From contig JAFRIE010000014.1 of assembly GCA_017432885.1 (NCBI GenBank), positions 1 to 64,000 on the forward strand: DNA of 64,000 nt, read 5' to 3'. The notes beneath the pieces were generated by a model. It worked only from the letters and a program-made list of their open reading frames with translations. It made no database searches and had not been told where the DNA came from. The DNA is from Erysipelotrichaceae bacterium. GTDB taxonomy: Bacteria > Bacillota_I > Bacilli_A > Erysipelotrichales > Erysipelotrichaceae. The position numbers and the translations under genes were made by a program. Positions 26,183-28,772 of this stretch are shown in pieces (the stretch's first letter is position 1; each line of letters opens with the position of its first letter).

Positions 26183-28522
26183 ATGGAAAAGACTTACGAA
26201 GTAAAAGGAATGACCTGCGTCATCTGTAAAGGAAACGTGGAAAGAGCGTTGAAGAATACACCTGGCGTTTTGGAATGCAAGATCAACCTGCTGGAAAATG
26301 AAGCCAGCGTCCGTTTCGATGAAACACGGACAAATGAAGAAATCATGGCGAAAGCCGTAAAGAATGCCGGTTATGAACTGGTAATCCGGAAAAACGGGGA
26401 AATCGATCTAGATAAAATCAAGATGATCATCTCCTGTGTTCTGGTTGCGGTCCTGATGTATTTCTCCATGGGACACATGTTTGGACTGCATGTCCCTTCC
26501 TATGGGAATTACATACAGCTGCTTCTTTCTACCCTTATCATTCTGCTGAACTTCCATCATTACCGTTCAGGTTTTCTTGCACTGTTTCACTTAAGACCGA
26601 ACATGGATTCCCTGGTTTCCATCTCCTCTTTCGTATCCTATCTGTATTCTCTTTATGTCCTTCTTTCCATGAAACATTCTTACCACCTGTATTTTGAAAC
26701 GGCAGCCATGGTTCCCGTTATTGTGTCGATCGGTAAATATATTGAAGGCAGTAACAAAAAGAAAGCCGCCAAAACGATCCGCGGCCTGGCTACACTTATA
26801 CCGATGCAGGCAAACCTGGTAAAGGACAATGAAGTAACAGTCATTCCGATCGATGATCTGAAAAAGGACGATATAGTGGTAGTCCGGCCGGGAGAATCGA
26901 TTCCGCAGGATGGCATTATCATTGCCGGCTCTTCTTCGATCGACGAATCCATGATCACAGGTGAATCCCTGCCGCAAAACAAGACGGTTAATGACGAAGT
27001 GATCGGCGGTACCGTCAACAGTAATGCTGAAATTCAGATCAGGATCACCAAGAACAGTTCCCAGACTACCCTTTCCAAGATCATCTCTTTAACCAAGCAG
27101 GCGACGATGTCTAAAATTCCGGTAGAAAAGTTTGCGGATACAATATCGAACTATTTTGTCTTCGGTGTAATGGGTATTTCTCTGCTTACATTCATTCTCT
27201 GGATGATACTCGACAAGGATCTGGAAAAAGCCCTAAACTTCGCCATGTCAGTTCTGGTGATCAGCTGCCCGTGCGCGCTTGGACTGGCAACGCCTGCCGC
27301 TGTCATGGTGGCTACAGGAAATGCCGCCAGAAACGGTGTACTGATCAAAAACCCGGAGATCCTGGAGGTAGCAGGAAAACTGAAGTATGTCATTCTGGAC
27401 AAAACCGGAACATTAACCAAAAACAAGCTTGAAATCATCGATCTGAAAGAATATGACAGTTCTTTCCTGAATGTTCTTTCCTCTCTGGAAAAGCATTCTT
27501 CCCATCCGATTGCCAAAGCCATTATAGAACGTTATCCGGACGGCAATCTGAATTTCGATGACTTTGAACAGATCTCTGCTGAAGGACTTCTTGCCCATAT
27601 CGGAAAAGGCAGCTACTATGCCGGAAACCTGAAACTGCTAAGCCGTTTTACGGATCAGATCCCGGAAGAGATCGCCTATGCCAGGAAAAACAATTATTCC
27701 TTCATCTGTGTCGGAAGAAATGATAGAATATTAGGTATCGTCTATCTCGCCGATGTGCTGAAAGACAGTTCGATCATGGCGATCGCTTCTCTGTACAAAC
27801 GGGGCATTACCCCGATCATGTGTACCGGAGATAATGAAATCACGGCAGCGAACATCGCCAGAAAGTTAAAAATAAAGGATTATCTTTCTTCCGTTACACC
27901 ACAGGATAAAAACAAGCTCGTCAGCGAGAAGAAAGAAATAGGAAAAACCGCCATGGTCGGAGATGGCGTCAATGATGCGATCGCTCTCTCGGCGGCTGAT
28001 GTCTCTTTCTCGGTTGCCAACGGTACAGATATCGCCTATGCGACCAGTGACGTCGTACTGATGACTAACAGTATCCTGGATGTTTCCTTTATGGTCGATC
28101 TGGCCAGAAAGACGATGTCCATTATTAAACAGAATCTCTTTTGGGCCCTGTTTTACAATGCCCTGTTTATTCCGCTCGCTGCCGGAGTTTTCTATAAAAC
28201 GCTGAATCTGTCATTGAATCCGATGATCGGAGCACTGACGATGTCAGTCAGTTCCATATTCGTGCTGACAAATGCACTTAGAATAAATTCAGTTAAAAAG
28301 GAGGAAATTAGGAAGATGAACAAAACCGTACTTATTGAAGGCATGATGTGCATGCACTGTGTCGCCCATGTTGAGGAAGCGCTAAAGAACCTGGGAGCCG
28401 ATGTTAAGGTCTCTCTGGAAGAAGGCAAGGCTTATCTGGAAGACACGGCATTAAGCGATGAACAGATCAGGGAAGCCGTTACCGATGCCGGCTATACCGT
28501 AACCGGAATTCTCAATGAGTAA
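26183..28522 (+). CDS. copA: Copper-exporting P1B ATPase with fused C-terminal CopZ domain
   Basis: 779-aa copper exporter. An N-terminal HMA domain (1-70) has the metal site CVIC (Cys12, Cys15). The P1B core has CPC (362-364) in the membrane, the phosphorylation Asp406 in 'DKTGTLT', 'SSHPIAKAI' in the N-domain and '[10 protein letters not shown]'. After the last helix, a linker 'VKKEEIRK' leads into a second HMA domain (712-779, '[15 protein letters not shown]', Cys723 and Cys726) that looks like a complete CopZ. An in-frame ATG at 28316 with AAGGAGG upstream could start that domain independently. The gene overlaps csoR by 8 bases. The CVIC site would suit Cu(I). Confidence 0.95.
28298..28318 (+). 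promoter_or_regulatory. Internal ribosome-binding site and in-frame ATG for the CopZ domain
   Basis: AAGGAGG (28298-28304) lies 11 bases before an ATG (28316-28318) that is in frame with copA and exactly at the first residue of the C-terminal HMA domain. A second purine patch AGGAAG directly abuts the ATG. If used, it gives a 68-aa free CopZ. Confidence 0.6.
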
Positions 28523-28772
28523 GGACCACGAACAGGTCAAGAAGTTTCTTACCATTGCCAAAGGGCAGCTGGAAGGCATCATCAAGATGATCGATGAAGA
28601 CCGCTACTGTCTGGATATTTCCGACCAACTCATGGCAACAAGAGCTTTACTGAAAAAAACGAATAACCTGATTCTGAAGAATCACATCGATAGTTGTGTC
28701 AAAACGGCAATAAAGAACGGCGATGAGCAGAAGATCGATGAAGTTATAAAAGCCCTGGAGAAGCAGATCTAG
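28515..28772 (+). CDS. csoR: Copper-sensing repressor CsoR
   Basis: 85-aa all-helical repressor of the CsoR/FrmR family. The Cu(I) triad Cys32-His57-Cys61 is present ('DRYCLD', 'KNHIDSC'), together with the N-terminal '[25 protein letters not shown]'. Copper binding releases it from the G-rich operator in front of copA. The ATG overlaps the copA stop, so regulator and pump are co-expressed. Confidence 0.94.

Follow-up and report, generated by a model that had tools for sequence, protein, structure and literature searches.

Locus and gene features

The window (the whole stretch of 64,000 nucleotides that was analysed) contains a copA gene followed by a csoR-type repressor gene, the start of which overlaps the copA stop (ATGAGTAA, 28515-28522). 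The features of this locus are as follows.

26183..28522, + strand: copA (779 aa; TIGR01511), encoding a predicted Cu(I) P1B-type ATPase that has one HMA at its N-terminus and a CopZ-like one fused to its C-terminus
26192..26377, + strand: N-terminal HMA domain, GMTCVIC (profile search, above the curated cut-off)
28283..28315, + strand: linker of 11 residues after the last membrane helix, housing the putative internal ribosome-binding site
28298..28304, + strand: internal Shine-Dalgarno (SD) sequence AAGGAGG, genus codons AAG GAG GAA; SD stretch AAGGAGGAA
28316..28318, + strand: ATG coding for Met712, the internal start codon; the first Cys of the C-terminal HMA follows 11 codons later
28316..28522, + strand: CopZ-like HMA with the motif MxCxHC, predicted free product of 68 aa (NF047957 and NF033794, matches below cut-off)
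28515..28772, + strand: csoR-type repressor gene (PF02583, 85.9 bits, cut-off 22.8)

The copA product matches the TIGR01511 profile for copper-translocating P-type ATPases with 549 bits (cut-off 397), and the CPC motif, the DKTGT phosphorylation site and GDGxND, signs of a P1B-1 Cu(I) ATPase, are all present in its translation. By profile and motifs the product is assigned to the P1B-1 Cu(I) ATPases (CopA), with predicted transport of Cu(I). Two HMA stretches were found by Pfam. The initial annotation had proposed that copA reads on past its last membrane helix into a second HMA domain; the profile matches and the single open frame, which runs on through the C-terminal HMA, bear this out. In the genome profile search the match of this second domain covers 28325-28498, above the curated cut-off; the domain scores 38.2 bits with the HMA profile (cut-off 24.8), and the CxxC in GMMCMHC is formed by Cys723 and Cys726. 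Both Cys positions had been placed correctly, as had the length of 68 aa, encoded by 28316-28519. Its assignment as an HMA is clear from the profile. With the CopZ equivalog profiles it scored 52.8 bits (NF047957, cut-off 85) and 50.9 bits (NF033794, cut-off 95), and it is therefore labelled CopZ-like and not filed as a CopZ member. MxCxHC is the motif of a CopZ2-like subgroup (PMC7558416).

Internal Shine-Dalgarno sequence and start codon

The linker and the first residue of the domain read V-K-K-E-E-I-R-K-M, in agreement with the K-K-E-E of the initial annotation. AAGGAGG (28298-28304) lies 11 nt upstream of the in-frame ATG (28316) that opens the C-terminal HMA, also as first described. The computed SD energy of this internal site is -11.5 kcal/mol, on a par with the -11.2 kcal/mol for the start of copA itself, and that of csoR has -3.5 kcal/mol; values of -8 kcal/mol or lower occur at only 29% of the 59 gene starts in the window. 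The RNA around the internal start shows no strong folding (z +1.49). No promoter above shuffles was found near the internal start, which gives no indication of a short transcript of its own.

Occurrence and conservation of the signal

Fused CopA sequences were collected from Erysipelotrichaceae, a sister family, other families of the class, and Clostridia, giving 181 different sequences, of which 140 were retained after dereplication. Fusions of a C-terminal HMA are common in Erysipelotrichaceae and occur in a second family of the order and in others of the class, as well as in Clostridia (Blautia, Ruminococcus albus, Hornefia) and in one Spirochaetia MAG. With the fusion this frequent in Erysipelotrichaceae and relatives, a C-terminal HMA is not an unusual architecture here, as the initial annotation had held it to be; such a domain is also known from Archaeoglobus CopA (PMC7558416). 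Lack of conservation of the SD sequence and start codon in homologous fusions had been named beforehand as a ground for refutation, and the comparison did not refute the proposal. An in-frame start codon with an SD energy of -5.5 kcal/mol or lower was found at the border of the C-terminal HMA in 134 of the 140 dereplicated fusions, a count over related and therefore not independent sequences.

The start codon is ATG in 129 of these 134, GTG in three and TTG in two. Exchange among the three codons alters the residue and keeps the start, and was counted in favour of internal initiation. Relative to the first Cys the start lies at -11 codons in 99 fusions, at -12 in 13 and at -10 in 10, so that 122 starts are 10-12 codons ahead of that Cys, the position at which free CopZ proteins start. 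SD energies of -5.5 kcal/mol or lower were found at 95.7% of the 140 C-terminal HMA sites versus 12.6% of 1923 other in-frame ATGs of the same copA genes, and energies of -8 kcal/mol or lower at 77.9% versus 1.4%; the figures for the C-terminal HMA sites are for the best candidate start codon per sequence window, a slight bias in their favour, although usually there is one candidate. The SD core is AAGGAGG or AAGGAG in 89 of the 134. In most fusions 8-9 nt separate the SD from the start; some lineages, the window's genus among them, have 11 nt, a longer spacing than in most relatives. A minority of sites has a weaker SD (about -5 to -6 kcal/mol), among them L009 of the window's genus.

The linkers vary in length and sequence and cannot be aligned with one another, and the SD sequence is read in two frames across the fusions, as K-E-E or as K-G-E/K-G-G; it is therefore the nucleotides and not the residues that are conserved. 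In a tree of 105 ATPases (a quick tree with many weak forks) the signal-bearing fusions are scattered over diverged lineages.

Codon choice at the SD sequence

The seven codons upstream of the internal start were synonymously recoded according to the codon usage of each gene, in 200 simulations. The observed mean SD energy is -9.69 kcal/mol versus -6.10 after recoding (sd 0.23; lowest of the 200 simulations -6.80). Energies of -8 kcal/mol or lower occur at 81% of the start-bearing sites, versus 29% after synonymous recoding, with a simulation maximum of 39%. Within the window's genus (21 sequences) GAG accounts for 24% of all Glu codons. All of them have GAG as the Glu codon of the SD (21/21), compared with 1/19 for the Glu codon that follows; AAG serves as the Lys codon of the SD in 20/21, compared with 3/19 for the Lys codon before it. 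Given the kinship of the sequences, these counts are descriptive and do not represent independent trials. The internal SD sequence is maintained through codon choice in this genus.

Tandem and N-terminal HMA domains

Two or three HMAs follow the pump at the C-terminus of CopA in L145 (G014), L150 (G021), L132 (G051) and L063 (G318). Among proteins with such repeated domains, only the last HMA is preceded by the signal in L063, L132, L145, L150 and L165, and the whole tandem pair in L064 (G158), L164 (G524) and L167 (G305); an internal start at the latter position would give a double-HMA chaperone. The tandem C-terminal HMAs had been considered as exceptions to the pattern, which was ruled out by the signal sitting at the last HMA or before the pair. 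At second N-terminal HMAs the combination of ATG and SD was found in 0 of 14.

Lineages without the internal start

Genus g48 has fused C-terminal HMAs without SD or start codon. In the five g48 genomes examined (5/5) deoD is directly followed by a free copZ-like gene about 57 codons long (L318:1958-2131, L319, L320, L321, L322); the search of 14 other genomes showed no such gene. Its product matches CopZ-type profiles with 32 bits, below the cut-off, and is 33% identical to the domain in the window. In G589 this gene apparently has a GTG start. G221 likewise has a fused domain without start, and a separate copZ follows immediately. Of two further fusions without start, the one in L246 is followed closely by a separate HMA gene, of the ZIP-adjacent type, and none was seen in the locus of L256.

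Among the small HMAs read in the start-bearing genomes examined, only other kinds were recognised (ZntA-adjacent, ZIP-adjacent, FeoB-type). The two free HMAs of the window's own genome were considered as CopZ and rejected, one being adjacent to ZntA (DCANC) and the other to a ZIP-like transporter (CGMCEAH); this search covers an assembly that is about 73% complete, and a free copZ could lie elsewhere. The pattern of loss together with a free copZ, present in two lineages, would fit a requirement that each genome have one free CopZ.

The initial annotation had suggested comparing split copA and copZ with the fusion in related genomes, and both arrangements were found. In six relatives (L056, L066, L173, L178, L185, L207) a stop codon separates copA from copZ, and the SD and ATG occupy the position that they have in the fusions. 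This layout makes a stop-loss fusion the likely origin, and the fused gene probably arose by loss of the copA stop codon.

One gene, probably two products

A putative free CopZ made from the pump gene by internal initiation, as proposed in the initial annotation, is strongly supported by the comparison of sequences. The copA gene very probably encodes two proteins, a pump with a tethered chaperone and a free CopZ. Ribosomes starting at 26183 would produce the full copper pump, with the CopZ domain tethered at its C-terminus, while others would bind AAGGAGG at 28298 on the same mRNA and start at the ATG at 28316, giving a free CopZ-like Cu(I) chaperone of 68 aa. The free chaperone may pick up Cu(I) in the cytosol and deliver it to the pump, and perhaps also to the CsoR-type repressor encoded next to it.

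Four other explanations of the internal signal were weighed. In the first, the internal start is there chiefly to supply ribosomes to the overlapping csoR by translational coupling, with the small peptide as a by-product. The arrangement in the window suits this, as the start of csoR lies across the copA stop and its own SD is weak (-3.5 kcal/mol), and internal initiation may therefore also feed csoR translation. No CsoR-like motif follows in about 73 of 130 dereplicated start-bearing fusions, however, which makes coupling unlikely as the general reason, the motif test being crude (at least two evident CsoR genes were missed, and CsoR counts are lower bounds); several of the fusions without motif are followed by terminator-like sequence, and the inner tandem HMAs lack the signal. 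As the main function, coupling is considered very unlikely.

A second explanation sees in the signal a vestige of a copA-copZ operon, fused by stop loss, in which copZ's former ribosome-binding site and ATG persist without use. Split genes of the same layout do exist in the six relatives named above. Unused signals should decay, but this one is kept across diverged Bacillota ATPases, within linkers that cannot be aligned and by an SD-preserving choice of codons; where it has decayed, in g48 and G221, a separate copZ-like gene is present. We regard a disused relic as highly improbable.

Less probable again is that the SD-like sequence acts as an elongation pause and not as a start site, for example by giving the last membrane helix time to insert ahead of HMA synthesis. 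The position of the SD just after that helix in the window would agree with a pause, but the linkers differ widely in length, so that the distance to the helix is not kept while that to the start codon is, and neither the alternation of ATG, GTG and TTG nor the lack of signal at inner tandem domains is in line with it. Chance resemblance of Lys/Glu-rich linkers to an SD sequence is almost certainly wrong, for even though such linkers are rich in K and E and 29% of synonymous recodings still reach -8 kcal/mol, the observed 81% is far above the maximum of the simulations, and the genus uses GAG at the Glu of the SD and hardly ever at its neighbour.

Internal initiation of a free chaperone is thus the preferred reading. 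It is probable that copper pump genes encoding their own free chaperone in this manner, in some lineages as a double HMA, represent a widespread device of Bacillota with an origin separate from the frameshift of E. coli, in which the strength of the internal start may tune the ratio of free to tethered chaperone and the coupling to csoR.

Comparison with known systems

E. coli copA uses a programmed -1 frameshift to produce CopA(Z), so that both the pump and a small soluble HMA chaperone are made (Meydan 2017, Drees 2017; PMC5009743, PMC9548414). The E. coli system and the one proposed here are alike in deriving a pump and a small HMA copper chaperone from one copA gene. They differ in that the E. 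coli chaperone is the N-terminal HMA, released by a frameshift that ends translation early, whereas in the window the C-terminal HMA would be made, by in-frame internal initiation. The system in the window would be an independent solution, in which the chaperone comes from the other end of the gene.

The CopA of Archaeoglobus fulgidus has a C-terminal metal-binding site that was described as regulatory (PMC7558416); it resembles the window's protein in the extra metal-binding domain at the C-terminus of CopA, but A. fulgidus has a separate CopZ, unlike the fused chaperone domain found here. The split copA-copZ(-csoR) operons (L056, L173, L178) share the gene order and the SD and ATG before copZ, and differ in the stop between the two proteins, where the pump in the window reads through into the chaperone. 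Cas11 is made from an internal start within cas8 (PMC11899642). It resembles the proposed system in that an in-frame internal start gives a small product from the C-terminal part alongside the full-length protein; the proteins and their function are unrelated. The case shows that this mode exists in prokaryotes.

No earlier report of a copper chaperone made by internal initiation was found in the literature searched, a search that most subscription papers lay outside. The production of pump and chaperone from one copA is already known from E. coli; for the present combination no earlier report was found. If the proposal is true, at least two bacterial lineages have found different translational routes to the same end, a copper chaperone obtained from the pump gene, which would suggest a benefit in having chaperone and pump in one gene as such. 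It would also mean that many gut Bacillota encode a small copper protein overlooked by annotation, and that a free chaperone becomes directly testable in genomes seemingly without copZ. An SD/ATG signature at a domain border would be a general means to uncover hidden second products.

Other small HMA proteins

Two other kinds of HMA protein were observed. An HMA protein with a GMMCGMCEAHI-like motif overlaps or precedes a gene for a ZIP-like transporter in L036 (2684-2935, - strand), L333 and L334; a similar HMA is present in L335, where the ZIP-like neighbour was not seen. Short proteins that combine a single membrane helix and a Cys-rich patch with an HMA at the C-terminus are encoded at L328:1301-1690 (- strand; G243) and L331:852-1244 (+ strand; G126), apparently beside FeoB-type iron transporter genes.
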